NCBI GenBank assembly: GCA_017521345.1
Contig: JAFXCU010000118.1
Location: 1 to 22,963, forward strand
Direction of reading: 5' to 3'
Length of the DNA: 22,963 bases
DNA from: Ruminiclostridium sp.
GTDB lineage: Bacteria; Bacillota_A; Clostridia; Oscillospirales; Oscillospiraceae
The notes under the pieces were generated by a model, which saw nothing but the letters and a program-made list of their open reading frames with translations, had not been told where the DNA came from and made no database searches. Positions within the stretch are counted from its first letter, which is position 1. Each line of letters opens with the position of its first letter. Of this stretch, positions 1-17,395 are shown piece by piece. Made by a program: the position numbers and the translations under genes.

Positions 1-799
1 CTGTGGTGGCTCCCCCTACGTCAACGATCATCAAATCCCCCAGACTGGGCTGGGCAGCGGTTCCCTTGGACAGCAGTTCCCCAGCCGAAAGAACGGCCGC
101 CGGGGTGGGCATGACCATTCGGTCCAACAAACCGGAGACCTTGTCCAGCCCCTTCATATTGATGATGCGGCGGAGAAAGACCTCACGGATAATTACCTCC
201 ACCTGATCCCGGTCGATCTGGCCTACATCGGGGATGATGTTGCGAACCATGTAGCACTCTTTCTTCCCCTGGGTCAGCAGGCGGCGTACTTCCCCACTGG
301 CGGCAGAGTTTCCGGAGTAGATGATGGGGATGTGGAGCCCGCTGGCAGCCAGCATCTCCGCATTATGAAGAAGGACCTTGGTGCCGCTGTTTTCGTACCC
401 GCCACAGAACAGAAGGATCTCCAGGGGCTGCGATTCCAGCTGGGCAATGTCTTCCGGTGTCAATCGTCCCGTACAGGTACATAAGATCTTGGCTCCCGCA
501 CCAAAGGCAGCATTTCGCCCAGCCTGGGCGCTGAGAGTCTTGGACAAGCCCACCACACCCATCCGCAGTCCTCCGGCGGCGCTGGAGGAGGAAAGCTTTA
601 GGGCATCATGAAAGGCCTCTACCCCAATGGCCCCTTTGGCGGCTTCAAAGCACTGTTCCAGGCCAATACGGGCATCCCAGGAAACGGTGGAAGGAAACCG
701 GTCGGTCAAGACCATACGCCTCTCCTCCAGGTCAGCCACTACCACTTTGGTATAGGTGCTGCCAAAGTCCGTCAGGATCACATAGCGAGGGCTGTTCAT
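1..799 (-). CDS. glmL: GlmL/MutL-type mutase-associated ATPase (5' part, runs off the left edge)
   Basis: Read on the minus strand from the ATG at 799, an open frame continues to the window edge (about 266 codons), so the C-terminal part is missing. The start has the actin-like ATPase phosphate-1 motif (DFGSTYTKV, residues 11-19). A second acidic, glycine-rich motif (VDVGGATT) lies at the very edge. This pattern fits the GlmL/MutL family found beside B12-dependent glutamate mutase genes; family members are thought to reactivate or chaperone the mutase, as EutA does for ethanolamine ammonia lyase. The ATG overlaps the stop codon of the upstream mutase gene by 4 bases (ATGA), implying translational coupling and a shared function. 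The family call is from recognised motifs and neighbourhood. The reactivase role is inferred. Confidence 0.8.
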   Translation of the reverse strand, partial: MNSPRYVILTDFGSTYTKVVVADLEERRMVLTDRFPSTVSWDARIGLEQCFEAAKGAIGVEAFHDALKLSSSSAAGGLRMGVVGLSKTLSAQAGRNAAFGAGAKILCTCTGRLTPEDIAQLESQPLEILLFCGGYENSGTKVLLHNAEMLAASGLHIPIIYSGNSAASGEVRRLLTQGKKECYMVRNIIPDVGQIDRDQVEVIIREVFLRRIINMKGLDKVSGLLDRMVMPTPAAVLSAGELLSKGTAAQPSLGDLMIVDVGGATT

Positions 800-2556
800 C
801 TCTGATAGGTCCCTTCGTAGATTTGTTTGATGGTAGGAACAATGGTCTCCATTTTGTTGTCACAGTTGACACCCATGGCACGCAGGTCCTCGGTCACATC
901 CACCGCCAGCTGGCTGCCATCCAGATTCTCATTCAGCAGTCCGCCCATGATGAGGACCACGTCCTCCATGTCATTCTCTTGCAAAGCCGCCAACAGATCC
1001 TTGGCAAAGCTCAGGGCAATGCCGTTATAGGTGCTGACTATGACCACTTTGCTTTCGGTCTCCAACAGATTCTCTATGATCTCCTCCACGGTAACATAAG
1101 TGCCCAGGTCATAGACCTGCGCCCCGGCCTTGTTGCACAGGGATTTCACCAGTTCTTTGCCATAGTCATGGATGTCAGTGGATGCCACCAGAGCGAGCCT
1201 TCCGGCCAGCTCACCTTCCACCTTACCGGCAGACAGGAACATCTTTTTCTGCTTTGTCTGGAGGGTCTTGATGATATCCGTGGGGCGGACAGGCTCTCTG
1301 CCCCGGAGGGCGGTCTTCTCCTTTTTTCCCACGCCAAAATTGGTTTCCAGCTGTTCGGCACCAATGGCCTTCAGGGCAGCAAAGATCTCACCGGGATGCT
1401 TCAGATCCACGCCCAGGTCGTCCAGACCGTTCATGACCCGTTCAAAGAAGACCTTGCCGCAGGCCAGCAGGATGTCCCGCTCTGCCTCCACGGCGGTCCA
1501 GTTCACATAGGGCTCATACAGAGCAGCCTTTTCGATCATCATATCCACACACAAATGACCGTCAATGATCTCATCTGCCGTGGGGATCCGGCAGGCCTCG
1601 GAGACTGGCACAGAGGCCACCGCATGACCGGTGGGTTTATGCCGCTGGCAGATGGAATCTGCCAGGGAGAAGCTGGACAGGGCGCCGTAGTTCTTGGAAA
1701 AGTCCAGGCCGTAGTCAATGGTGTTGCCAAAGGTCATGGTACCAGGGGTATTTTTCACGTTGGTGGCATCGCACACCATGTTAAACACGATGCGGGAGAT
1801 GGGATCGCTGAACAGGTTGCCGTAGGAGAAGGTCATGGAGGCTCCCAGAAGCTCCTCCACCAGGTAACGTTCGATCATAGTCCAGCCCGTCAGATTGGCC
1901 AGGTCGTGGAACTGGTTTCCATAACCGTCATCCAGATTGGAGTGGACGATGGTTCCGTCAAACTTGCCCATGAGGCCAAAGGCCAGCAGGGAGTTCACCG
2001 TGCGCTCCCGCTCCAATTCGATGCCAGGATACTCATAGGTGAAATAATGGGAGACATTGCCCAGAGAGGTCACACCGGCCTCCAGGGCCAAACGGGCATT
2101 TTCCAAGGCATTGGGACAGCCGATCATGTGGTCGCTCATGTGGGGCTGTATGGGCGCGATCTGGCCGATGGCCTTCCACTCCTCCGGGGTCTTGAAAATC
2201 AAACCTGTGCCCGGCTGAAGTTTGGAGCGGTATTCCTCCGGCACACCCATGACCCAGTCAAAAATGAAGCCCATGCGGGTGATATAGCTGCCCCGGCGCT
2301 CCAGCTCCCGGTAGATGTACTCCACATTTCTGGCAGTCTCATCCCAGGAGTTCCAGCCAATGTGAGAGTGCTTGGAGATAAAGCCCTCCTTCATGGCCTT
2401 CCGTTTAAACTCCGCCTCAGACTTGACCTCGTGATGGCGGAAAAATAAGGTCTCGCCTATAGTGGTCTGAGCTGCAATCTTGTCAATCTGACGTCGGATC
2501 TCCACCATATCCGGCAGATCTTTATATTCAAAACGCTTGTTCATCACAATATTCAT
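796..2556 (-). CDS. Single-chain adenosylcobalamin-dependent carbon-skeleton mutase (glutamate/methyleneglutarate mutase type)
   Basis: The 586-residue protein has an N-terminal catalytic region (about 1-440) and a C-terminal cobalamin-binding domain (about 446-586). The B12 domain shows the DxHxxG signature (D461, H463, G466) that supplies the lower axial histidine, a VSTYNG segment near 507-512, and the late GG pair at 538-539 (IMGGL). Classic clostridial glutamate mutase keeps the B12 domain on a separate small GlmS chain, so this is a fused arrangement, as in 2-methyleneglutarate or methylmalonyl-CoA mutases. The downstream GlmL gene overlaps it by 4 bases and supports the glutamate-mutase-like class. 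The catalytic part does not show the GlmE segments I remember, so the substrate is open. The start at 2556 follows an AGGGAAG ribosome site; the next Met (2544) has none. Confidence 0.65.
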   Translation of the reverse strand: MNIVMNKRFEYKDLPDMVEIRRQIDKIAAQTTIGETLFFRHHEVKSEAEFKRKAMKEGFISKHSHIGWNSWDETARNVEYIYRELERRGSYITRMGFIFDWVMGVPEEYRSKLQPGTGLIFKTPEEWKAIGQIAPIQPHMSDHMIGCPNALENARLALEAGVTSLGNVSHYFTYEYPGIELERERTVNSLLAFGLMGKFDGTIVHSNLDDGYGNQFHDLANLTGWTMIERYLVEELLGASMTFSYGNLFSDPISRIVFNMVCDATNVKNTPGTMTFGNTIDYGLDFSKNYGALSSFSLADSICQRHKPTGHAVASVPVSEACRIPTADEIIDGHLCVDMMIEKAALYEPYVNWTAVEAERDILLACGKVFFERVMNGLDDLGVDLKHPGEIFAALKAIGAEQLETNFGVGKKEKTALRGREPVRPTDIIKTLQTKQKKMFLSAGKVEGELAGRLALVASTDIHDYGKELVKSLCNKAGAQVYDLGTYVTVEEIIENLLETESKVVIVSTYNGIALSFAKDLLAALQENDMEDVVLIMGGLLNENLDGSQLAVDVTEDLRAMGVNCDNKMETIVPTIKQIYEGTYQR

Positions 2557-2591
2557 ATGGGTTCACTTCCCTTCTTCCCTATCATATAATA

Positions 2592-2624
2592 AAAGAGACC
2601 GATTGACAAGCAATCGGTCTCTTT
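2592..2624 (-). terminator. Perfect 14-bp hairpin between dctM and the mutase gene
   Basis: An AAAGAGACCGATTG arm (2592-2605), a 5-base loop and the exact complement (2611-2624) form a 14-bp stem. On the minus strand the stem ends in CTCTTTT followed by ATTAT, a fair U-rich tail, so it should end or attenuate the TRAP transcript before the mutase gene. On the plus strand no T-run follows. Confidence 0.8.
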
Positions 2625-2640
2625 ATCATCGAAAAATCAA

Positions 2641-3948
2641 TTATGCAAAAATCTGGGGCATCAGGATGCTGGGCAGAGTGGTTGCAACTGCGGGGATGTA
2701 GGTGGTGATCAGCAGAGTGGGGACCCAAGCAAAGATGATGAAGGTCATGATGGGCTTGAGCATGGTGTTGATCTTTGCGCCGACAACACGGCCGGACAGG
2801 TACAGCATGGGAGCGGTGGGGGGAGTGATGTTACCCATACCCAGGTTCACGCCCAGGATTGCTGCGAAGTGGACGGGGTGCACGCCGATGCTGGTCACGA
2901 TGGGCAGCAGGATGGGGGTGCACAGCAGGATGCCGGAGGTATCGTCCATGATCATACCGATGATAACCATGAAGATGTTGATCATCAGCAGAATGACGAT
3001 GCGGTTGTCGGTGACGCTCAGCAGAGCCTCTGCGATCTGAGTGGGGACGTTCAGCATGGTCAGCAGCTTGGAGAAGATCATAACCATGAAGAACATGACC
3101 ATGATAACGCCGGTGGTGGAGGCAGACTCGGTCAGTGCCTGAACGAAGGTCTTGCCCTTCAGGCCCTTGTAGACCAGGAAGCCAACGGGGATGGCGTAAG
3201 CAACGGAGATAGCTGCTGCTTCGGTAGCAGTCATGATGCCGCCGTAGATGCCGCCCAGGATGATGATGGGCATGAGCAGAGCGGGGATCGCATGAACGGT
3301 TGCCTTAGCAGTGTTGCCCAGCCAGTTTCCGCCTTCCTTTTCGGGCTGACGGATGTCCATCTTGCGGCACATGACAGCGTTCACGATGCACAGGAAGATG
3401 ACCAGGATGACGCCGGGAACAACGGTAGCGGTGAAGCAGGCCAGAACGGAAGTACCGGAGGACCATGCATACAGGATCTGTGCGGAGCTGGGAGGGATCA
3501 GCAGACCCAGGGGGCAGGCAGCTGCCAGCAGAGCAGCGGTGTAGCCAGTGGGATAGCCGGCCTTCAGCATACGGGGGTACATCAGAGAACCGATGCAGGA
3601 CAGGGTTGCGGATGCGGAACCGGAGATGGAACCGAACACAGCGGAAACGATAACAGAGACAGCACCCAGGCCGCTCTTGGCTTTACCAACAAATCGCTCG
3701 ACCAAGCCGATCAAGGCGTCGCCGATGTTGCCCTTCTCCATGATCTTACCAGCCAGAACGAACAGGGGGATAGCCAGCAGAACGACGGAGTTGATCTGGG
3801 TGTAGCCAGATGCCAGCAGGGTGTTGGGGTTGAAGTCCATGGTGTAAGTCAGCCACAGGAAGGAACCGCCAAAAGCGAAGGGAATGGGCATACCAAGGAT
3901 CAGGCCAACGACCAGAATAACAATACTAATGATAACTTCGATATCCAT
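2641..3948 (-). CDS. dctM: TRAP transporter large permease subunit (DctM family)
   Basis: This 435-residue, very hydrophobic protein has about a dozen membrane segments, the usual size and form of DctM, the ion-coupled channel subunit of tripartite ATP-independent periplasmic transporters. Family-typical stretches include the glycine/proline-rich opening (ILGMPIPFAFGG), the GSISGSASAT region near 107-116, GLLIPPSS near 147-154, and the NLGMGNITPP segment near 375-384. Its ATG at 3948 shares a base with the stop of the upstream dctQ (TAATG), the common tight coupling of Q and M subunits. With DctQ and DctP it forms a complete importer, normally for carboxylates or amino acids and driven by a sodium gradient. 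The substrate cannot be read from this subunit. Confidence 0.92.
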   Translation of the reverse strand: MDIEVIISIVILVVGLILGMPIPFAFGGSFLWLTYTMDFNPNTLLASGYTQINSVVLLAIPLFVLAGKIMEKGNIGDALIGLVERFVGKAKSGLGAVSVIVSAVFGSISGSASATLSCIGSLMYPRMLKAGYPTGYTAALLAAACPLGLLIPPSSAQILYAWSSGTSVLACFTATVVPGVILVIFLCIVNAVMCRKMDIRQPEKEGGNWLGNTAKATVHAIPALLMPIIILGGIYGGIMTATEAAAISVAYAIPVGFLVYKGLKGKTFVQALTESASTTGVIMVMFFMVMIFSKLLTMLNVPTQIAEALLSVTDNRIVILLMINIFMVIIGMIMDDTSGILLCTPILLPIVTSIGVHPVHFAAILGVNLGMGNITPPTAPMLYLSGRVVGAKINTMLKPIMTFIIFAWVPTLLITTYIPAVATTLPSILMPQIFA

Positions 3949-4601
3949 TACTCGTTCGCCTCCTTTTCTGCGTTCTCAGCAGCTTCGGCTGCCTTTGCGG
4001 CCTCAACTTCGGCCTTGGTGGGTGCGGAGCACTCAGGGAACTTTGCCTTCAGAGCATCGGTGACATAGTCGCCGTCCTGAGGCTCAGAGAAATAACCCTT
4101 GCGGACAAAGGTCAGAGTGTTCTTAATAAAGTAGACCACATGATAGAACTCCATCAGCAGGAAGCCGAAGAAGACTGCGGACTTGGGAATGACCAGGGGG
4201 ATCTTCAGTGCAGTGGACAGACCGCCCTTGGCGATCTCAGCACCGAAGTAACGAATAGCCCAAACCAGAACGATGGTGTTGACCACGATGGTCAGGAACT
4301 GACCCAGCAGGGCAACAGCGTCCTTCTTGCGCATATTCTTGATGTAAACGTTCAGCAGGTCAGCCTTGATGTGGCTGTTCTCGTAGGAGCCATAGACAGC
4401 ACCCATGAAGTAGAGCCAGAAGGCGAAGAGCATGATAACTTCGTCGGAACCGTAGAAGTTGCCCTTGAAAACATAACGCAGAACCACGGAATAGACCATG
4501 CAGCCGGTGGAGATGACGCTGCAGGCGATCATCAGCCAACGGATGACCTCAGAAAGGCCCTTCCATGCCAGGGACTGCGTCAGGTCAAAGGATTTAGACA
4601 T
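3948..4601 (-). CDS. dctQ: TRAP transporter small permease subunit (DctQ family)
   Basis: The 217-residue protein has four predicted membrane helices (about 18-45, 50-75, 95-120 and 140-165), matching the DctQ topology. A segment with DEVIMLFAFWLYFMG at 53-67 is typical of the family. The C-terminus is unusual: from about residue 175 it becomes a charged, alanine/glutamate-rich cytoplasmic tail (KAEVEAAKAAEAAENAEKEA) that probably forms a helix and that ordinary DctQ proteins lack. It sits between dctP and dctM, overlapping dctM by one base, and is separated from dctP by a strong intercistronic hairpin. Its role is to join the DctM channel to the receptor pathway. Confidence 0.88.
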   Translation of the reverse strand: MSKSFDLTQSLAWKGLSEVIRWLMIACSVISTGCMVYSVVLRYVFKGNFYGSDEVIMLFAFWLYFMGAVYGSYENSHIKADLLNVYIKNMRKKDAVALLGQFLTIVVNTIVLVWAIRYFGAEIAKGGLSTALKIPLVIPKSAVFFGFLLMEFYHVVYFIKNTLTFVRKGYFSEPQDGDYVTDALKAKFPECSAPTKAEVEAAKAAEAAENAEKEANE

Positions 4602-4653
4602 TGAATTACTCTCCCTTGTTTCTAATGCAGTGATAATTTTGTTTTCTTGAAAA

Positions 4654-4683
4654 GAGCCGGGGCACCACGGGGTACCCCGGCTC
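4654..4683 (-). terminator. Intercistronic attenuator-type hairpin between dctP and dctQ
   Basis: GAGCCGGGG (4654-4662) pairs perfectly with CCCCGGCTC (4675-4683), a 9-bp GC-rich stem with a 12-base loop. On the minus strand it is followed by TTTT and then CAAG, so the U-tail is short. This looks like a leaky terminator or mRNA-stabilising hairpin that would leave dctP, the receptor needed in excess, expressed above dctQM. The stem is seen; the stoichiometric role is inferred. Confidence 0.65.
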
Positions 4684-4743
4684 GATCAAAGTTCAATCAA
4701 TACGATACTGGCTGGTATCGATTAAACCAAATTGAGTGACCAA

Positions 4744-5829
4744 TTAGGCCTCAGCAGCCTCTTCGCCCTCAGCAGCCTCACCAGCGTCGGAAGCGGTGTT
4801 AGCCTCGATCAGACCATTCAGGATGTCCTCGCCGATGTTGTCGGTCAGCTTGGGCCAGGTGGTAGCGATGACGTGATCGATGTAAGCCTGCATCTCTTCG
4901 TCGGTCAGCTCCAGAATGGTGATGCCGTAGTCGGCCATCTTCTGCATAGCTTCCTCGTCACCGGTCTTAGCGGTGGAGAAGGAGTTGACGGACTCTTCGG
5001 TGAAGGTGGTGGTGATCAGGGTCTGCAGGTCCTCGGGCATGCCGTTGAAGACATCCTGGCTCATCAGGAAGCCGATGTTCTCAGCGAACACGTTGTAGGG
5101 GACATAGTACTTGATAACGTCGCGGAAGTCGGAGTAGTTCAGCTGAGGAGTGCCGCCGATCCAGCCGTCGCAAACGCCGGTCTGCATTGCGGTGTACAGG
5201 TCAGCATAAGCAATGGTGGTTGCGGAGTAGCCCATGTCCTCGGTGACCAGGTTGTAGACCTCGATAGCGGGAGCGCGGACCATCAGGCCCTTGTTGACGT
5301 TGACGTCGTTGTAGCCGACGGGTTCGGGAACGAAGCCGAAGCCGATCATGCCTTCAACGTACATACCCAGCAGCTTGATGTTCAGGTCAGCCATGATGTT
5401 GGTGTACTGCTCGAAGAAGTAGGAGCCTTCGCCGAAGCCAGCTTCCAGGCCGTCATAACCGTTGAACAGGTAGGGGATGAAGTTCATCTCCAGGCGGGGG
5501 TCATACTCAGAGGGGATGGGAATCAGAGCGATGTCGACGGTGCCTTCACCCAGCTCCTGGAAGGTCAGGGTGTAGTCGCCCAGCTGGGAAGAGGGATACA
5601 GAGTGACGTCCAGACGGCCCTCGGACTCGGTCTCCAGCTTCTCCTCAATACGCTCCAGAGCTGCATAGCCCAGGTGCTCCTGGTTGTAGTGGGTAGCAAT
5701 ACGCAGGGTGTAGACTTCGCCTTCAGCGCCGCCTTCATCTGCTGCGGGCTCGCTGTCGCCACCGCCGCAGCCAGCCAGCAGGGAAGCAGACATTGCCAGA
5801 GCCAGGATGAGACTCAGTGCTTTCTTCAT
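4744..5829 (-). CDS. dctP: TRAP transporter solute receptor lipoprotein (DctP family)
   Basis: The ATG at 5829 is chosen over an upstream in-frame ATG because a GGAGG ribosome site precedes it and a lipoprotein signal peptide starts exactly there: KK, a hydrophobic helix, then the lipobox LLAGC with the acylated cysteine at residue 21. The mature part (about 40-340) has the DctP layout: a strand TLRIATHY near 41-48, a middle GLMVRAPA with Arg185 at the position of the conserved carboxylate-binding arginine, and GVCDGWIGG in the second lobe. Length (361) is normal. The acidic C-terminal tail (AGEAAEGEEAAEA) is odd. It should bind the transported acid at the outer membrane face and deliver it to DctQM. 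The substrate is unknown; a carboxylate is implied by the arginine. Confidence 0.9.
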   Translation of the reverse strand: MKKALSLILALAMSASLLAGCGGGDSEPAADEGGAEGEVYTLRIATHYNQEHLGYAALERIEEKLETESEGRLDVTLYPSSQLGDYTLTFQELGEGTVDIALIPIPSEYDPRLEMNFIPYLFNGYDGLEAGFGEGSYFFEQYTNIMADLNIKLLGMYVEGMIGFGFVPEPVGYNDVNVNKGLMVRAPAIEVYNLVTEDMGYSATTIAYADLYTAMQTGVCDGWIGGTPQLNYSDFRDVIKYYVPYNVFAENIGFLMSQDVFNGMPEDLQTLITTTFTEESVNSFSTAKTGDEEAMQKMADYGITILELTDEEMQAYIDHVIATTWPKLTDNIGEDILNGLIEANTASDAGEAAEGEEAAEA

Positions 5830-5892
5830 TTTTGTGTTCCTCCTTGTTGATTTTCCGGTTGCGTCTCCCGGATTTATTAATTTCGGCAAAAA

Positions 5893-6999
5893 TTACTTCT
5901 TGCCGGTACGCACGTATGCCAGCAGGGTATCCTTGTCCATGCCTTCGATGCCCAGCTCGTCCAGGCCGCAGCCGTTTGCGCGCCAGTCCTTCTCGTGGAC
6001 AACGTTGATGATGTCGATGAAGCCGTTGGTCAGAGGCATGGGAACGCCGACGACCTCAGCGATAGCTGCCCAGGGCACCAGGCCGTAGGGGATGTCCTCG
6101 GTCAGGTAACGGGAATTGATGTCGTTGGGGCCGCAGATGGGGGTCAGGCCGATGGAGCCGTGGCCTTCCTTGTACAGGTCCTGCCAGGTCCACTCGTAGT
6201 CGTCGGGACGGCCAGCGAAGTCTTCCATGGGGCGCAGGTTGTAGCCCAGAACGTTGCCCAGAGCCTTACGCTCCTTGTCCATAGCGATGTTCAGGCGGCA
6301 AGCGGAAGGAGTCCAGCCGTGCTCATACAGGAAGAAGTTGACCTGGGGAGACTCGATGCGGGAGATGTTGAACAGAACGGGGCCAGCATGCCAGTCGGGG
6401 TTGACGATAGCCAGGCCGCACTCCAGAACGTCGGTGTAGATACGCTCGAAGGGGAACAGGTCTTCGCGCATCTCGTCGATCAGCTCGGGACCCTTCTCAG
6501 CAGGCAGGAAAGCGATGTTGATGGGGTTACGGCCGAAGACGTTGACGGTGTCGGAGCCCTTTTCCACCAGACGTGCGTCGTAGGGCAGGTTGTTGGCGTC
6601 AGCGAAGATGGGGCAGTCCTCGTCGCCGATGACGTTCTTCAGAACCAGAGCGGAGAATGCGCCGGGATAGGTGACGATGATCTGATCCTTGTGGACGTGG
6701 CCCTTCAGCAGCTTAGCATAGCCCAGGTGAGCGAATGCGGGAGCAACGATGCAGATGTAGTGGCAGCCTTCGACAGCAGCAGCGATGTCGTCGGTGACCA
6801 TGTTCAGCTTGACAGCGCCCTGCAGCTCGGGGATGTTGCCCTGCAGCTTGATGGTCTGGGTGTCAAAGACCTTCTGCATGTTGGCCTTGAACTGAGGCAT
6901 TTCGTACAGGTTGACAGTGTGGCCCTTCAGAGCCATCTCAGCTGCCATGGTGTGAGCGCCGTTGCCGCCGCCCAGGACTGCGATTTTCTTGGGAGTCAT
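5893..6999 (-). CDS. Opine dehydrogenase family protein (octopine/nopaline dehydrogenase type)
   Basis: The 368-residue protein starts with a Rossmann nucleotide-binding motif (VLGGGNGAHTMA, residues 8-19) and has the family two-domain form: N-terminal NAD(P) domain to about 185 and a C-terminal helical opine-dehydrogenase domain. The segment IVNPDWHAGP holds His204, which corresponds to the catalytic histidine of the family. Known members interconvert an N-(carboxyalkyl) amino acid with a 2-oxo acid plus an amino acid, using NAD(P)H. It is the first gene of the TRAP unit, with dctP 63 bases downstream, so it probably acts on the imported compound or its product. An AAAGGA ribosome site precedes the ATG. 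Family confidence is good; substrate and direction are unknown. Confidence 0.8.
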   Translation of the reverse strand: MTPKKIAVLGGGNGAHTMAAEMALKGHTVNLYEMPQFKANMQKVFDTQTIKLQGNIPELQGAVKLNMVTDDIAAAVEGCHYICIVAPAFAHLGYAKLLKGHVHKDQIIVTYPGAFSALVLKNVIGDEDCPIFADANNLPYDARLVEKGSDTVNVFGRNPINIAFLPAEKGPELIDEMREDLFPFERIYTDVLECGLAIVNPDWHAGPVLFNISRIESPQVNFFLYEHGWTPSACRLNIAMDKERKALGNVLGYNLRPMEDFAGRPDDYEWTWQDLYKEGHGSIGLTPICGPNDINSRYLTEDIPYGLVPWAAIAEVVGVPMPLTNGFIDIINVVHEKDWRANGCGLDELGIEGMDKDTLLAYVRTGKK

Positions 7000-7034
7000 A
7001 ATCTTCCAATCCTTTCTGACATAATTTATTTGCT

Positions 7035-7053
7035 ACAATGGACAAGCCATTGT
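7035..7053. promoter_or_regulatory. Inverted repeat upstream of the dehydrogenase gene (possible operator)
   Basis: ACAATGG, 5 bases, CCATTGT: a perfect 7-bp inverted repeat centred about 45 bases before the dehydrogenase start. The size fits an operator for a dimeric regulator; the CdaR-like protein encoded next door is the obvious candidate. No binding evidence exists. Confidence 0.4.
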
Positions 7054-7255
7054 CAGGGAACGGGAACAGTATCATTTTGAACCTTGCTGATGGGGAAAGC
7101 TACAATACAGCAATTATATCAACCATGATACCCTATTCTCGACTTGATGTTATCACTTTCTATAAAATCTGTCATCCTCAAAAAGGTGGAATTTTCAGTC
7201 TTGACTACTGCATTCATCCTACTTTTCGTACGAACCGCAGGAATGAATAAAATAT

Positions 7256-7287
7256 ACGGCAGACAAATTCCAATATTCGTCTGCCGT
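7256..7287. terminator. Hairpin terminator downstream of the CdaR-like gene
   Basis: ACGGCAGAC (7256-7264) pairs exactly with GTCTGCCGT (7279-7287) around a 14-base loop. On the minus strand ATATTTTATTC follows, and on the plus strand TTTTCCTTATT follows, so it could work both ways. Its natural role is to end the regulator transcript before the dehydrogenase-TRAP operon. Confidence 0.6.
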
Positions 7288-7392
7288 TTTCCTTATTAAT
7301 ATTAGGTTTTCCTATTTCTTGTCGGTTGTTTTTACGAATTTATCCTTTGCAACAAATGTAGGAAATCTTTTTTCTAGGTTTCCTATCTATCT

Positions 7393-8601
7393 TCACTTCA
7401 GCTTCCGGCGGATGTCCAGCAGATAAAGGGCCACCACACGGTCAAAATCATACAGATCCAGACCATACAGCTCCTGGATCCTGCGGAAACGGTAGACCAG
7501 CGTACTTTTGTGGATATGCAGAGCCTCTGCCGTCTTGGTAAACTGGAAGCGAAGGCGGCACCAGCACTCTATGATAGAGATGATCTCATCGTAATTGGGC
7601 GCATGAAGGATGGTCTGAAAGAGGGTGTTGGCCGCCTCTTCGCACAGATCCTCCGGAAGATTGGCTGCCAGCTTTTCCAGCATCACATCGGCGATGCTGA
7701 GGCAGGAATCCTCCCGGATCTTTGCCTGTAGGATGCGGAGGACAAAGGAGGCATTTTCGTAAGAGAGACGCAGCCCTTCCAGAGAACCGGCCATGGAGCC
7801 GATACCTACAAGGACCGGGTGTCCACTCTGGATGAGCTCCTGCTCCATCTCCTGACAGGTATGAAGGATGCTCTCCATGCTGCTTTCCTGAAGTCCATCG
7901 GGAAGACAGGCCAGCACCACGTACTCCGCATTGTTCTGGGGGCAGATAAAATCCTGGGAATCAGAAAAATACTTGCTCAGGATCTCAGTCACATGCTCTG
8001 CCGCCAGTCCCTTTTCTTCCTCGGTGAGCTGGCCATTCCCGTCCTGACCATTCTTGATCAGGATGGCCACCCTGGGCACGTTGAGATCCAGCCCCACCTC
8101 ATAGGCCAGACCGTAAACATCCTCAGGATCGCGGATGCGCTTGTCAAAGGTCACGATCTCGCGGATCAGATTCTGCTTGCGGTAATCCTGCTGGGCCGTG
8201 GTCTGCTGCTGGCTCTGGAAGCTCATAAAGATCTGCGCAAACTGCTGGATCAGGGCTGCGTATCGGGAGATCTCCTGGGGAGAGCCGGTGATGCCGATGG
8301 TGCCGATGACCTCTTCCCCCATAAAAAGAGGGATGGTCATGCCGGGCATGGTCCCTTCCAGCTTCATGGCGGCAGCGCTGTTGTGATAGGCCTTCTGCTT
8401 GGTCCGAATGACCTCAACAGAGGCCTCGTGAAGGGTCCCCTCACGGCTGGGATCGTTGCTGGACAGAATGTGGCTGGTTTCATCCGTGATGAGGACATTG
8501 CAGCCAATGGTCAGGCTGGCAGACTGGACCAGCTTGTCACACAGCTCCTTGTCCAGCACCCGTCTTGTGAAGATGTTATGATTTTCACGCTTGCCTTCCA
8601 T
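7393..8601 (-). CDS. CdaR/PucR-type transcriptional regulator (sugar-diacid regulator family)
   Basis: The ATG at 8601 is preferred over one at 8760 because GAGGAGG lies at proper distance upstream and the family N-terminus begins here, giving 402 residues. Residues about 10-140 resemble the diacid-recognition domain (ITDETSHILSSNDPSREGTLHEA, then PGMTIPLFMGEEVIGTIGITG). The middle (about 150-300) matches the GGDEF-like domain of this family, and the C-terminus (about 335-402) is the PucR helix-turn-helix (QFTKTAEALHIHKSTLVYRFRRI). CdaR proteins sense organic diacids and activate uptake and catabolic genes. It lies upstream of, and on the same strand as, the dehydrogenase-TRAP genes and divergent from eutV, so the TRAP locus is its likely target. 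The ligand is unknown. Confidence 0.85.
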   Translation of the reverse strand: MEGKRENHNIFTRRVLDKELCDKLVQSASLTIGCNVLITDETSHILSSNDPSREGTLHEASVEVIRTKQKAYHNSAAAMKLEGTMPGMTIPLFMGEEVIGTIGITGSPQEISRYAALIQQFAQIFMSFQSQQQTTAQQDYRKQNLIREIVTFDKRIRDPEDVYGLAYEVGLDLNVPRVAILIKNGQDGNGQLTEEEKGLAAEHVTEILSKYFSDSQDFICPQNNAEYVVLACLPDGLQESSMESILHTCQEMEQELIQSGHPVLVGIGSMAGSLEGLRLSYENASFVLRILQAKIREDSCLSIADVMLEKLAANLPEDLCEEAANTLFQTILHAPNYDEIISIIECWCRLRFQFTKTAEALHIHKSTLVYRFRRIQELYGLDLYDFDRVVALYLLDIRRKLK

Positions 8602-8673
8602 CCCTGTCTCCTCCTCAATGTAGTGGTACCTAAAAAATGATTGCGATTTGCTGTGATTTATGCTATTTTTAAC

Positions 8674-8705
8674 TTGAACACTGGTGCGATCAACAGGCTG
8701 TTCAA
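8674..8705. promoter_or_regulatory. Inverted repeat in the divergent cdaR-eutV region
   Basis: TTGAACA (8674-8680) and TGTTCAA (8699-8705) form a perfect 7-bp inverted repeat with an 18-base spacer. It would lie in the regulator gene's 5' untranslated region or act as a two-site operator between the divergent genes. The function is not known. Confidence 0.3.
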
Positions 8706-8731
8706 ACCCAAATTTTAGGTAATTTGTTTTT

Positions 8732-8760
8732 AACATACCACAAAACTTCGGTTTGGTCAA
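8732..8760 (-). promoter_or_regulatory. Probable sigma-70-type promoter of the CdaR-like gene
   Basis: On the minus strand TTGACC (8760-8755) is followed after exactly 17 bases by TATGTT (8737-8732), a good vegetative promoter match. It would give a leader of about 120 bases before the ATG at 8601. I found no equally clear plus-strand promoter for eutV in the 200-base divergent gap. Confidence 0.6.
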
Positions 8761-8801: not shown

Positions 8802-9530
8802 TTGAAAAAAGTAATCATCGTCGATGACGAGCCCATCACTCGAATGGACCTGTCCGATATGCTCCAGGAACTGGGGTTCTCCGTGATTGGCGAGGCCGCT
8901 GACGGCTTCGACGCCATCGAACTCTGCCGTTCCCTCCATCCTGATGTGGTCCTGATGGACGTAAAAATGCCCATCTTTGACGGCTTGACTGCCTCTGAAA
9001 CGATCTTGGACGAAGACCTGGCAGAGTGCGTCATCCTTCTCACGGCATTCAGTGACCGTGAGGTCATTGAGCGTGCCAGCTCTGCCGGTGTCACCGGATA
9101 CCTGGTCAAGCCCATCGAGCAGAAGTCTCTGCTGCCCACCATTGAGGTGGCCTATGCCCAGAGCCAGCGGCTGAAAGAGATCCGTAAAAAGGCCGCAGAT
9201 GCCGAGCGTCAGATCCGGGAAAATCGCCAGATCATGAAAGCCCAGCAGTATCTTGCCAAGACCCAAGGCTGTTCTGAGAGCGAGGCCTACCGCCAGATGC
9301 GCAAGACCGCCATGGATAAGCGAATGTCTATTGCCGCCCTGGCCGAGCGCATCCTTCAGCAGGCTGCCCAAAATGATGACATTGCTGCTGTAAAGAAGAT
9401 CCTGATGGCCCGAAAGAACATGACCGATTCCCGGGCCTACCATTATATTTCAACTTACGCAAAGAGCCACAGATGCACCGTGGAACAGGCGGCCAAGGAG
9501 CTGAAAATCCTGTTCAGCAGGGAGGGCTGA
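8802..9530 (+). CDS. eutV: EutV response regulator with a receiver and two ANTAR-like RNA-binding domains
   Basis: It starts with TTG at 8802, placed by a GGAGGG site just upstream. The receiver domain (1-120) has the acidic pair D8-D9, phospho-acceptor D53 (VVLMDVKMP), T81 and K103. A coiled linker leads to an ANTAR domain at about 142-185 (AYRQMRKTAMDKR core). EutV proteins are normally about 190 residues and end here; this one has 242, and the extra part (195-238) repeats the ANTAR pattern (LMARKNMTDSRAYHYI, then A220, R224, A230). The two segments align without a gap over 37 residues. EutV is phosphorylated by EutW and binds paired hairpins in nascent RNA to block terminators. The eutW start is 3 bases after its stop. 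Confidence 0.9.
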   Translation: MKKVIIVDDEPITRMDLSDMLQELGFSVIGEAADGFDAIELCRSLHPDVVLMDVKMPIFDGLTASETILDEDLAECVILLTAFSDREVIERASSAGVTGYLVKPIEQKSLLPTIEVAYAQSQRLKEIRKKAADAERQIRENRQIMKAQQYLAKTQGCSESEAYRQMRKTAMDKRMSIAALAERILQQAAQNDDIAAVKKILMARKNMTDSRAYHYISTYAKSHRCTVEQAAKELKILFSREG

Positions 9531-9532
9531 CC

Positions 9533-10606
9533 ATGCTGAGTCAAATTTGTCAGGAACTGACCACCCTCTCCCCTGCCGATATCCAGCAGTTGGAGGACGT
9601 CAGCCGTCAGCTCCCTCTCATGGCCGAACTCACCGGCGCAGATGTTTTCATCGACTGCCCCACCAAAGACAATGAGATCGTGGTGGTGGCTCAGGCTAAG
9701 CCCACCTCCGGCAGTGCCTATGAGAAAAGCGTCATCGGAGAAATCATCCTGCGGCAGAAAGAGCCCGCTGTGTTCCATGCTCTGAAGATCCTCTCCCCTG
9801 CCCGGGACATCAAGGCCATTACCCAGGAAAACCACACGGTTCGCCAGGACGTGGTGCCCATCTTTAACCCAGAACAGCGGTGCATCGCTCTGCTCATCCG
9901 GGAACTGGACATCAGCGACGATGTGCTCCAGGAGAAAAAGTACCAGAGTCTGGCCAGAACTTATGAGAAGGAGGACAGCACCCTCCGCTCCAGCCAGATC
10001 AGCGAAGACACCACCACTCTCCGGGAGGTCCACCACCGGGTCAAGAACAACCTGCAGCTGGTGGCCAGCATCCTGAATATCCAGGCCCGCCGATGCGGCA
10101 ACGACTTTACCAAAAAAATTTTACAGGAAAATGTCAGTCGAGTCTTGTCAATTGCTGCGATCCATGATATATTGACACAGAATCGGGATGGTTTTCACCA
10201 AATCGACAGCATGACCCTGCTGGAACAACTGCGCAAAAACCTGCAGGCCTTTGTTCCCGATGGCAAGTCCATCACCATCAGTGTCAGCGGCTCTTCCGTG
10301 ATGCTGTCTCCCGACACAGCCAGTTCGGTCTCTCTGGTGGTCAACGAGCTGATCACCAACGCCTTGGAGCACGCTTTCGAGGACAGAGACTCCGGCTCTA
10401 TCCAAGTAGCCTTCCTGGCGGGCAGTCTGTTCCACACCGTGACCGTGGCAGACAACGGCAGTGGCTTTGATGTCACCACACCCCGCACAGGCAGCCTGGG
10501 GCTGAACATCGTGGACGCTACGGTCCGTGACCGCCTGCGCGGTCATATGACGGTGTATTCCAGTGCTGGCGGCACACGGATTTCATTTGACTTCAAAGCA
10601 GAATAA
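9533..10606 (+). CDS. eutW: EutW sensor histidine kinase
   Basis: The ATG at 9533 follows AGGGAGGG inside the end of eutV and gives 357 residues; an in-frame GTG/ATG-type start further upstream would overlap eutV by 60 bases and is not needed. Residues 1-130 match the PdtaS/EutW-type N-terminal sensor domain (ELTGADVFID, AKPTSGSAYEKSVIGE). The HisKA_2 phospho-acceptor box is REVHHRVKNNLQ (164-175, His167 or His168), followed by the ATPase domain with N-box NELITNALEHAF (271-282), DNGSGF (307-312) and GSLGLNIV (320-327). No membrane segment is visible, so it is a cytosolic kinase. It should respond to ethanolamine and phosphorylate EutV, as shown for Enterococcus homologues. Confidence 0.92.
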   Translation: MLSQICQELTTLSPADIQQLEDVSRQLPLMAELTGADVFIDCPTKDNEIVVVAQAKPTSGSAYEKSVIGEIILRQKEPAVFHALKILSPARDIKAITQENHTVRQDVVPIFNPEQRCIALLIRELDISDDVLQEKKYQSLARTYEKEDSTLRSSQISEDTTTLREVHHRVKNNLQLVASILNIQARRCGNDFTKKILQENVSRVLSIAAIHDILTQNRDGFHQIDSMTLLEQLRKNLQAFVPDGKSITISVSGSSVMLSPDTASSVSLVVNELITNALEHAFEDRDSGSIQVAFLAGSLFHTVTVADNGSGFDVTTPRTGSLGLNIVDATVRDRLRGHMTVYSSAGGTRISFDFKAE

Positions 10607-10611
10607 TACAT

Positions 10612-10647
10612 CTGCACAACAGAGTGCGGTTTGAAAGCAAGAAAGCT
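10612..10647 (+). promoter_or_regulatory. Candidate EutV-binding double hairpin (P1-P2) upstream of eutA
   Basis: P1 is a 6-bp stem, CTGCAC (10612-10617) with GTGCGG (10624-10629), around the hexaloop AACAGA. Six bases later P2 is AGC-AAGAAA-GCT (10636-10647). Two small hairpins with hexaloops beginning in A are the known ANTAR target form, and AGCAAGAAAGCTA fits the reported eut motif AGCAANGRRGCUY at 11 of 13 positions. The usual G at loop position 4 is A in both. P2 shares bases 10642-10647 with the following terminator, so the two structures exclude each other. Confidence 0.7.
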
Positions 10648-10679
10648 AGGGCGTTGCAAGACACGCCTTGGCTTTTTTT
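10642..10679 (+). terminator. EutV-controlled intrinsic terminator between eutW and eutA
   Basis: Bases 10642-10654 pair with 10663-10675 around the loop TGCAAGAC, with two G-U pairs, and the stem runs into an unbroken T7 (10673-10679). By default it should stop transcripts entering from eutVW. EutV binding to the overlapping P2 hairpin would free the structural eut genes. Confidence 0.85.
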
Positions 10680-10705: not shown

Positions 10706-12136
10706 ATGCCGGATATTTTGAGTGTCGGTATCGACATTGGTACATCCACCACCCAGCTGGTTTTCAGCCGGATCACCATGGAAAACACCACCGGGTACTT
10801 CACGGTACCTCGTATCTCTATCGTAGATAAAGAGGTCATCTACAAGAGCTCCGTTCATATCACTCCCCTGGTCACGCCCGTCCTCATTGACGGTGAGGCT
10901 ATCCGGGATATCGTCGCCGAGGAATTCCGCCTGGCGGGATTCAGCCCCTCCGACGTGGACACGGGTGCCGTCATCATCACTGGTGAGTCTGCCCGCAAGG
11001 AGAACGCAGCCGCCGTGCTGGACAAGCTCAGCGGCTTTGCCGGTGAGTTCGTGGTCTCCACCGCTGGCCCTGACCTGGAATCCATCATTGCCGGCAAGGG
11101 CAGCGGTGCCTTCCAGTACAGCCTGGACAACAACTGCCGGGCGGTCAATCTGGACATCGGCGGCGGCACCACGAACATTGTTCTGTTCGACAACGGCGAC
11201 ACCATCAGCAAGGGCTGTCTGGACATCGGCGGACGACTGATCCGCCTGAAATCCGACCTGACTGTGGAACGTGTCAGCCCTGCCGCCCAGCTGGTGGCAG
11301 ATGCCGTAGGGATCACCCTGACCCCCGGTTCCAGAACTACCCTGGAGGACCTGACCCGCATCACCGATAAAATGGCCGACCTTCTGGCCCAGGCCATGTT
11401 CTTAAAACCCCAGGAGCCCCTCCTGTTGAAGATCCAGACCCCGGAAAGCTCCTGGCTGGAACTGGAAGGCCTTAAAATCGACCGGATCTGTTTTTCCGGC
11501 GGTGTGGCCGACTGCATCACCAGCGATTCCCAGGATCCTGTCCCCTCTGGTGACATCGGCATCCTTCTGGGCCGTTCCATTGCAAAGGGCCTTCTGATGG
11601 CCTCTATCCCCTCCATCCAGGGTGTGGAGACCATACGAGCCACTGTGGTGGGTGCCGGAACCTATACTACCAGCATCTCCGGCAGCACCATCACCTATGC
11701 CAACGAGCTCTTCCCCATGAAGAGTGTCCCTGCCCTGAAGCTGGGTCTCCAGGAGCAGGAACGCTGCTTTGCCGGGGATTCCGGTTTCCTGGCGGATAAG
11801 ATCCGCTGGTTCCTGGAGCAGAGCAGTTCGGATATCCTCATCCTGGCCCTGCCGGGTGAGGGCGACCCCAGCTATCCCCAGCTGAAAGCTCTGGCCCGCT
11901 GTCTGGCCAAGGGCATGGATCAGGGGCTTCCTGCCGGCGCTCCCGTACTGGTGGTGCTGGAGCAGGACATTGCCAAGGCCCTTGGCATCCTGCTGGAGGA
12001 GGAGCTGCAGGGCCGCAGAAAGGTCGCCTGCATCGACGGCATCAAAGTCGAGCAGGGAGACTACATCGACCTGGGCCGCCCGGTGATGGGTGGTCTGGTG
12101 ATCCCCGTTGTGGTCAAGACCCTATTATTTGGTTAA
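10706..12136 (+). CDS. eutA: EutA, reactivating factor of ethanolamine ammonia lyase
   Basis: The ATG at 10706 is chosen because it follows AAAGGGGGG; the longer frame from 10631 would start inside the terminator. The 476-residue product has the ASKHA ATPase fold: phosphate-1 motif VGIDIGTSTTQLVFSR (residues 7-22) and phosphate-2 motif NLDIGGGTTNIVLFD (about 147-161). EutA uses ATP to eject inactivated cobalamin from EutBC so that fresh adenosylcobalamin can bind. It is the first structural gene after the regulated terminator and is directly followed by eutB. The length and these motifs match known EutA proteins well. Confidence 0.94.
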   Translation: MPDILSVGIDIGTSTTQLVFSRITMENTTGYFTVPRISIVDKEVIYKSSVHITPLVTPVLIDGEAIRDIVAEEFRLAGFSPSDVDTGAVIITGESARKENAAAVLDKLSGFAGEFVVSTAGPDLESIIAGKGSGAFQYSLDNNCRAVNLDIGGGTTNIVLFDNGDTISKGCLDIGGRLIRLKSDLTVERVSPAAQLVADAVGITLTPGSRTTLEDLTRITDKMADLLAQAMFLKPQEPLLLKIQTPESSWLELEGLKIDRICFSGGVADCITSDSQDPVPSGDIGILLGRSIAKGLLMASIPSIQGVETIRATVVGAGTYTTSISGSTITYANELFPMKSVPALKLGLQEQERCFAGDSGFLADKIRWFLEQSSSDILILALPGEGDPSYPQLKALARCLAKGMDQGLPAGAPVLVVLEQDIAKALGILLEEELQGRRKVACIDGIKVEQGDYIDLGRPVMGGLVIPVVVKTLLFG

Positions 12137-15182: not shown

Positions 15183-15479
15183 ATGAATAGCATGCAGGCA
15201 TTAGGTATGATCGAAACCAAGGGTCTGGTCGGTTCCATCGAGGCAGCCGACGCAATGGTCAAGGCAGCAAACGTTCACCTGATCGGTAAGGTCCACGTCG
15301 GCGGCGGTCTGGTCACCGTTATGGTCCGCGGCGACGTCGGCGCTGTCAAGGCTGCAACCGACGCTGGCGCAGCTGCAGCTTCCCGTGTTGGCGAGCTGAT
15401 CTCCGTCCACGTCATCCCCCGTCCCCACGGTGAGGTCGAGTACATCCTGCCTGTCCTGGGCGGCGAAGCAGCAGAATAA
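15183..15479 (+). CDS. eutM: EutM, hexameric BMC shell protein (copy 1)
   Basis: The 98-residue, single BMC-domain product is of the EutM/PduA type: [20 protein letters not shown] (about 6-25), the pore loop and [19 protein letters not shown] (about 29-47), and the terminal [13 protein letters not shown] (about 79-91). Such proteins are the main hexagonal tiles of the shell. A GGAGG site precedes the ATG. From residue 5 to residue 93 it is identical in protein to the second eutM at 17105, with ten silent base changes; only the ends differ. Codon choice (GGT, GTC, ATC, AAG, CTG) is strongly biased, fitting very high expression. In related operons one of the copies flanking eutE is named eutK, but here both are plainly EutM. 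Confidence 0.96.
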
Positions 15480-17049: not shown

Positions 17050-17104
17050 TCCCCCTATCTACTATCAATTCACATTCAACCACTAATTTTTGGAGGTAAC
17101 TATT

Positions 17105-17395
17105 ATGGTACAGCAGGCATTAGGTATGATCGAGACCAAGGGTCTGGTCGGTTCCATCGAGGCAGCCGACGCAATGGTCAAGGCAGCAAACGTCCATCTG
17201 ATCGGTAAGGTCCACGTCGGCGGCGGTCTGGTCACCGTCATGGTCCGCGGCGATGTCGGCGCTGTTAAGGCTGCTACCGACGCTGGCGCAGCAGCAGCTT
17301 CCCGCGTTGGCGAGCTGATCTCCGTCCACGTCATCCCCCGTCCCCACGGCGAGGTCGAGTACATCCTGCCTGTCCTGGGCAACACCGAGGAGTAA
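17105..17395 (+). CDS. eutM: EutM, hexameric BMC shell protein (copy 2)
   Basis: The ATG at 17105 (after TTGGAGGTAA) gives 96 residues; the TTG at 17090 lies in the ribosome site itself and is rejected. Residues 4-92 are identical to residues 5-93 of the copy at 15183. In many Firmicute eut operons a distinct shell gene (often called eutK) occupies this place after eutE, so an exact EutM repeat is notable. The product should co-assemble freely with copy 1 in the shell facets. A strong non-terminating hairpin follows the stop (17429-17451), which could stabilise the upstream mRNA and raise shell-protein output. The codon bias is as strong as in copy 1. Confidence 0.96.

Follow-up and report, generated by a model that had tools for sequence, protein, structure and literature searches.

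The reading frame at 8802-9530 of the window, the window being the whole stretch of 22,963 nucleotides from Ruminiclostridium sp. analysed here, is predicted to encode a regulator of ethanolamine genes of a gut-type bacterium. Judged from sequence comparison, its product is a genuine and conserved variant of EutV in which two ANTAR domains stand in tandem. Tentatively, at somewhat less than an even chance, the protein is taken to be an EutV-type antiterminator in which ANTAR1 would read the RNA within a phosphorylation-driven dimer, ANTAR2 being a conserved auxiliary ANTAR. Both ANTARs, their 50-residue pitch, the adjoining kinase and an element of two hairpins and a terminator before eutA are read from the sequence. 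The features concerned are the following.

8802..9530, + strand: EutV-type response regulator with a receiver and two ANTAR domains (ORF of 242 aa with a TTG start; Pfam)
8811..9143, + strand: receiver domain, residues 4-114 (Pfam PF00072, Response_reg, 90 bits)
9147..9224, + strand: linker or coiled-coil region, residues 116-141 (aligned to the EutV coiled coil)
9198..9356, + strand: ANTAR1, residues 133-185 (Pfam PF03861)
9381..9503, + strand: ANTAR2, residues 194-234, with K198, D209 and Y213 at G-pocket positions (PF03861, 32.1 bits alone)
9533..10606, + strand: EutW-type sensor kinase with GAF_PdtaS, HisKA_2 and HATPase (Pfam on a longer ORF from 9473)
10612..10629, + strand: RNA hairpin P1, 6-bp stem, CTGCAC[AACAGA]GTGCGG, hexaloop AACAGA (element scan, covariation)
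10636..10647, + strand: RNA hairpin P2, 3-bp stem, AGC[AAGAAA]GCT, overlapping the terminator (element scan)
10639..10678, + strand: intrinsic terminator upstream of eutA (16 pairs, then a T run)
10709..12136, + strand: eutA, first gene past the RNA element (ORF; mechanical start at 10631, 10709 being the chosen start)

The traits of the EutV family were found together in the window: a receiver-ANTAR protein adjoining an EutW-type kinase within a eut locus, and a dual hairpin with terminator at 10612-10678. Most of the eut loci compared have a similar order, with eutA first. The phospho-acceptor, D54 in Enterococcus faecalis EutV, is kept, an Asp standing in this column in all 33 alignment rows listed, and the a/d positions of the coiled coil hold more Ala and Ser than in E. 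faecalis EutV. The preliminary description had expected the tandem to change how phosphorylation switches the system; since the receiver Asp and the coiled-coil linker are kept, phosphorylation-driven dimerisation would be the more economical switch.

The second ANTAR, which the preliminary description had proposed, was borne out by profile searches. With the whole protein, the Pfam ANTAR family scored 70.8 bits in two matched stretches, the best at 133-185. Alone, residues 188-242 scored 32.1 bits for ANTAR, over its cut-off of 27.3 (E 9.7e-8), and matched no other Pfam family at E up to 10; the match placed residues 194-234 on profile positions 13-53 of 54, leaving the first 12 positions unmatched. 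In a profile-profile comparison, ANTAR2 (63 homologues) matched 22 single-ANTAR EutV domains with a probability of 97.5 and E 7.4e-12, and its profile scored 52.1 against these classical ANTARs and 32.0 against its own ANTAR1, the former being the nearer. The idea that the C-terminal part is an unrelated extension was rejected, the profiles identifying it as ANTAR. Among the 25 of 98 NCBIfam matches listed for the regulator, all were to receivers. The best solved relatives were 6WSH (E. faecalis EutV) over residues 3-185 and 1S8N (Rv1626) over 2-188 only.

The repeat within the chain had been described as an ungapped alignment of residues 147-183 with 198-234, a register that is one residue off: offset 51 scores -24 with 3 identities and offset 49 scores -12, but the true offset of 50 gives +23, with 9 identities over 141-189. 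The pairwise case is modest, for the offset-50 score was equalled by 135 of 20,000 shuffled tails (offsets 44-57), and the profiles therefore carry the argument for ANTAR2. The Arg that had been counted in the shared ANTAR core is indeed Arg in both copies here (R174 and R224), but the sharing is almost confined to this sequence: of 63 homologues, 51 have Gly at position 224 and 2 have Arg.

Homologues near 240 residues with a second ANTAR were surveyed. From a search of 5.8 billion proteins with 1722 matches, 113 of the 120 listed homologues are 238-252 aa long, and a one-off fusion was thereby rejected. A set of 143 proteins was assembled from the 120 listed matches, 22 tandem loci and the window protein; both domains were found in 142, where equivalent alanines of ANTAR1 and ANTAR2 lie 50 residues apart in all but one (141), the exception having 51. 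The remaining protein (P0074, 215 aa) gave no ANTAR2 match and stands outside the measured set. Among the best 80 of 221 relatives in named genomes, 22 loci held an intact ANTAR2 by the profile from 63 homologues; locus L031 has an ANTAR2 match behind a disturbed ANTAR1 in a disturbed reading frame. The hosts are Oscillospiraceae and other Bacillota, two Synergistota (Synergistaceae) MAGs and one Planctomycetota (Planctomycetaceae) MAG, the last two labels being open to binning errors. Within the class, 391 genomes were screened at E 1e-30; matches came from 21, and in G001, G414 and G462 they were of tandem length. Two regulators of the EutV-type family, one of tandem and one of single length, stand in genome G462 (L112, L132). 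With the Pfam model alone, which may miss divergent second ANTARs, two adjacent ANTARs were found in 2 of 147 genomes of the order (G001, G064). No description of a tandem-ANTAR chain was found at the level of titles and abstract openings; the published overview of architectures, whose Figure 1 gives 17 ANTAR architectures according to its legend (PMC3369931), lies beyond that scope, and priority is not claimed for the tandem form. The wording on paired ANTARs in the crystal paper refers to the two chains of a dimer (PMC8934654).

ANTAR2 appears to be under purifying selection. Rough pN/pS values, with synonymous sites near saturation, were for ANTAR2 0.107 (window-L001), 0.121 (window-L002) and 0.119 (L001-L002), and for ANTAR1 0.029, 0.039 and 0.013 in the same pairs; against L003 they were 0.40-0.59 for ANTAR2 and 0.29-0.34 for ANTAR1.

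The scan of the window gave one P1-P2-terminator element, at 10612-10678 before eutA, with a P1-P2 linker of 6 and with the loop and 3′ arm of P2 taken up by the terminator. Of the relatives, those called type A here include single-ANTAR proteins that are the closest non-tandem kin of the window protein. Type-A leaders of eutA were inspected in 28 cases, 16 from tandem and 12 from single-ANTAR loci; 26 showed both hairpins in the required form (A1 and a C-G closing pair), and those of L015 and L034 had P1 but no P2 of that form. An alignment of 26 leaders, from which L015, L034 and the wrongly cut leader of L038 are omitted, has 91.5% of cells pairing and a covariation score that none of 500 shuffles equalled; both sides vary in 8 of 10 pairs, as also occurred in 68 of 500 shuffles, and the choice of leaders by hairpin form is itself a bias toward the structure. 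On loci outside its build the covariance model (R1) scored 43.5 bits in L038, 41.0 in L031, 36.1 in L014 and 34.1 and 33.6 in L013, was marginal in L032 (20.3 and 17.9) and L036 (17.9), and stayed without a match at E up to 1 in L015, L022, L029, L030 and L113. Genome G001 had one strong match (39.9 bits), on C17, the contig of its tandem gene, and three further matches at E 0.33-0.70. The linker measures 4-8 in the 12 tandem leaders, 3-11 in the 7 from type-A singles and 3-8 in the 19 classical ones, L031 with a linker of 12 being left out; the automatic finder behind such sets failed to return a pair in 21 of the 40 classical leaders, 4 of the 16 from tandem loci and 6 of the 13 from type-A singles.

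The RNA target is thus not doubled: each leader has one P1-P2 pair, in relatives that lack ANTAR2 as well. A third hairpin as partner of ANTAR2 was sought and rejected, none being consistent in the 28 leaders; scattered extra hairpin matches lie, for example, inside the kinase frame in L037 and beside the eutA ribosome site in the window. EutV systems frequently have a link to EutX/Rli55, an RNA with an AdoCbl riboswitch (PMC5821096). Over window positions 1-22963 no Rfam family, the cobalamin riboswitch included, reached the gathering threshold, and the 9 matches of a permissive search all fell under it.

The loops differ from the classical code. Both window hexaloops, AACAGA and AAGAAA, have A1 and lack G4; the P1 loop lies at 10618-10623, and type-A hexaloops mostly read A4-G5. 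In the automatic set, P1 carried G4 in 19 of 19 classical leaders against 1 of the 20 remaining leaders (12 from tandem loci, 7 from type-A singles, and L031 counted as type A), 11 of the 19 classical leaders being from Paenibacillus, so that independent events are few. By eye, none of the 16 tandem type-A leaders has G4 in P1 and 15 have G5; of the 12 single ones, 4 have G4 and 11 have G5. P2 is less regular, with G5 in 5 of 12 tandem leaders, not including the window. The shift to G5 is a trait of the clade and not of ANTAR2, because it goes with the loss of R142 from ANTAR1 and the single-ANTAR relatives show it too. Together, G5 hexaloops and the loss of R142 may amount to another recognition code. 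A1 and G4 have been kept as requirements when ANTAR targets were searched for by computer (PMC3369931), and an altered loop code would widen such searches.

In E. faecalis EutV, whose numbering is used for the contacts below, R142, K149 and E160 hold G4 and Y164 stacks on it, R168, N173, R175 and R177 touch the backbone, M172 plugs the loop, and K143 and K147 reach over the dimer (PMC8934654). Classical single EutVs have the pocket set in 41 of 41, M172 in 40, R168 in 41 and R175 in 40; R177 is absent from them (0 of 41), as from both ANTARs of the tandem proteins, and is for that reason no criterion of membership. Of the RNA-contacting residues whose absence was to count against a second ANTAR, the pocket is kept: in 23 tandem proteins (the window and 22 loci), ANTAR2 has Lys149, Glu/Asp160 and Tyr/Phe164 in all 23 and Arg142 in 10. 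The other contacts are nearly all missing, M172 being found in 0, R168 in 1 and R175 in 2, and a basic residue stands at 147 in 12 and at 143 in none. ANTAR1 of the same proteins has M172 in 23, R175 in 22 and R168 in 14. The full G-coordinating set R142/K149/E160/Y164 is present in ANTAR2 of 10 and in ANTAR1 of 1. The window's ANTAR1 lacks R142 and has Gln for K149; its ANTAR2 has Asn at position 142 (Asn191) and misses the equivalents of R168 and M172. In the 63 homologues, by residues of the window protein, ANTAR1 has Tyr163 in 61, R167, M171 and R174 in all 63 and Gln at the place of K149 in 62, and ANTAR2 has K198 in 63, Asp/Glu209 in 60 and Tyr213 in 56.

The two ANTAR copies thus look to split the classical contact set between them. 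That the split is obligatory is argued against by the type-A single proteins, in which, with no ANTAR2 present, R142 is missing in 16 of 16 and Gln149 is found in 15 of 16. Compensation by ANTAR2 for the change of K149 to Gln in ANTAR1 was considered and rejected for the same 15 of 16, and independent pairs lend it no support. Replacement of R168 in ANTAR1 is seen only alongside an ANTAR2 (9 of 23 tandem against 0 of 56 single rows of the tree set), an association without significance in the 4 independent pairs. Some RNA contact by ANTAR2 is plausible, since its pocket trio is kept in 23 of 23 and the full set with R142 in 10.

On the tentatively preferred reading, EutW would phosphorylate the receiver, a dimer would form through receiver and coiled coil, ANTAR1 would clamp the hexaloop and its stem, and with P2 held the terminator could not form. 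ANTAR2, having kept its base-pocket face (K198, D209, Y213) and not the loop plug and backbone contacts, would not be a second complete hexaloop reader; most likely it would add an in-cis contact to the same or a neighbouring hexaloop, raising affinity or easing the step from P1 on to P2; it is also a domain that can be lost. It may be dispensable for the P1-P2 RNA, because the type-A single proteins presumably work on the same element without ANTAR2 or R142.

A lesser but serious possibility is that ANTAR2 makes no RNA contact and serves in protein-protein contacts instead, steadying the dimer or, as long as the protein is unphosphorylated, covering ANTAR1 or packing against the receiver. The absence of loop plug and backbone contacts from nearly all ANTAR2s would fit this, the ANTAR of NasR is autoinhibited by a partner domain (PMC7496416), and the change of the classical dimer contacts R142/E146/E161 and of the coil leucines in the clade leaves room for another dimer contact. 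The residues kept are, however, those of the base pocket, K149 in 23 of 23, although K149 and Y164, being family-wide, could be kept in ANTAR2 for folding; and the altered dimer contacts and coil are common to type-A singles that have no ANTAR2.

A history in which the tandem came first has also to be weighed. On a tree from receiver and ANTAR1 only (79 rows, 23 of them tandem, L031 and L035 left out), the tandem label changes at least 4 times. One loss of ANTAR2 is well supported, as L026 with a single ANTAR is nested in the window's clade (100/97). Rooting with 12 other receiver-ANTAR proteins placed the root among tandem rows, the classical EutVs branching inside L032/L036, L030 and L029 (L029 plus the classical clade 98/93); this root is weak, with long branches and 3 of the 12 outgroup proteins inside the ingroup. 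The textbook single-ANTAR EutV would then be derived from within a tandem grade, on a weakly rooted tree. It is conceivable, but on balance unlikely, that the tandem is ancestral to EutV-type regulators, with ANTAR1 clamping loop and stem, ANTAR2 taking the flipped base and a phosphorylated dimer of four ANTARs holding P1 and P2, and that the textbook EutV lost ANTAR2 and kept a single ANTAR with the whole contact set and a G4 code as against the G5 of the tandem type.

Less probable again is that both ANTARs are complete hexaloop readers, one chain holding P1 and P2 or a dimer four loops, so that phosphorylation need not dimerise the protein. The preliminary description had proposed this from the premise of one ANTAR per hairpin at once, a premise revised by the EutV-RNA crystal paper on E. 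faecalis EutV, in which a dimer contacts a single hexaloop at any moment, with a shift from P1 to P2 proposed, and a monomeric construct gave no antitermination (PMC8934654). Two predicted ANTAR folds per chain at a fixed pitch, and a full G-coordinating set in ANTAR2 of 10 of 23 proteins against ANTAR1 of 1, speak for it; the window's own ANTAR2 has Asn at 142 and lacks R168 and M172 equivalents, and one P1-P2 pair per leader, with the linkers given above, is found also where ANTAR2 is missing. With the contact set of ANTAR2 partial and the target single, and the same in relatives without ANTAR2, one chain reading both hairpins or a dimer reading two pairs gains no support, and the monomer model, though possible, is disfavoured and not the best supported. 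That ANTAR2 is a decaying relic without function is very improbable, for although it was lost in relatives such as L026 and evolves faster than ANTAR1, its pN/pS is about 0.11 in close pairs, its pitch is unchanged in 141 of 142 proteins and K198 is present in 63 of 63.

For the use of two hairpins by EutV, the crystal paper found no arrangement in which a single dimer reaches the pair on the same RNA, and proposed successive binding (PMC8934654). A natural protein with a second ANTAR, and near kin that lack it on the same RNA element, make the two-hairpin question directly testable.

Several neighbourhoods deserve record as co-locations. Divergent from the window's regulator, at 796-8760 (- strand), lie by eye a PucR-like regulator, an opine-dehydrogenase-like gene, a TRAP transporter and a B12-type protein. 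In L002, L003 and L029, too, the regulator stands beside opine-dehydrogenase-like genes; in L029 Pfam names octopine dehydrogenase, TRAP-like genes are seen by eye, and an AATAAG loop resembling P1 lies upstream of the regulator. The divergent stretch of L013 encodes DHDPS, an FAD oxidoreductase, an iron alcohol dehydrogenase and an FGGY kinase (Pfam) with TRAP-like genes (by eye), and has P1-P2 elements with AATAGG P1 loops at 1596-1632 (-) and 9671-9707 (-); going by co-location only, the tandem-ANTAR regulator beside this non-eut operon may mark a new ANTAR regulon. In L032 it adjoins, again by co-location only, a glycyl-radical enzyme and a BMC-domain protein (Pfam), with P1-like loops AACAGG before regulator and enzyme, and in L036 it likewise adjoins glycyl-radical enzyme and BMC-domain genes. 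The marginal P1-P2 matches of these two loci, which precede regulator and enzyme, are at 9693-9731 and 11674-11710 (+) in L032 and 4846-4882 (+) in L036. In the window, the shell-protein products of 15183-15479 and 17090-17395 are seemingly identical over about 88 residues, and the gene pair looks like a recent duplication or gene conversion.

Among known systems, E. faecalis EutV/EutW (6WSH, 6WW6; PMC3369931, PMC8934654) shares the receiver, coiled coil and ANTAR1 (E 2.4e-47 over 3-185), the adjoining kinase, two hexaloop hairpins with P2 overlapping the terminator, and the eut genes. Its EutV has a single ANTAR and its loop a G at position 4, whereas the window protein has a second ANTAR and an ANTAR1 without R142 and with Gln for K149, and the G of its P1 loop is at position 5. 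Closest of all non-tandem kin are the type-A single-ANTAR EutVs of Oscillospiraceae and other Clostridia (the L010-L038 group), which are 57-65% identical to the window protein over residues 1-187 in the rows checked, have lost R142 as it has and carry G5 loops in 11 of 12 leaders, but lack ANTAR2. Rv1626/PdtaR combines receiver and ANTAR like the window protein, with one ANTAR only. NasR, whose ANTAR reads hexaloops with A1 and G4 (PMC7496416), differs in having one ANTAR and a NIT sensor where the window protein has its receiver.
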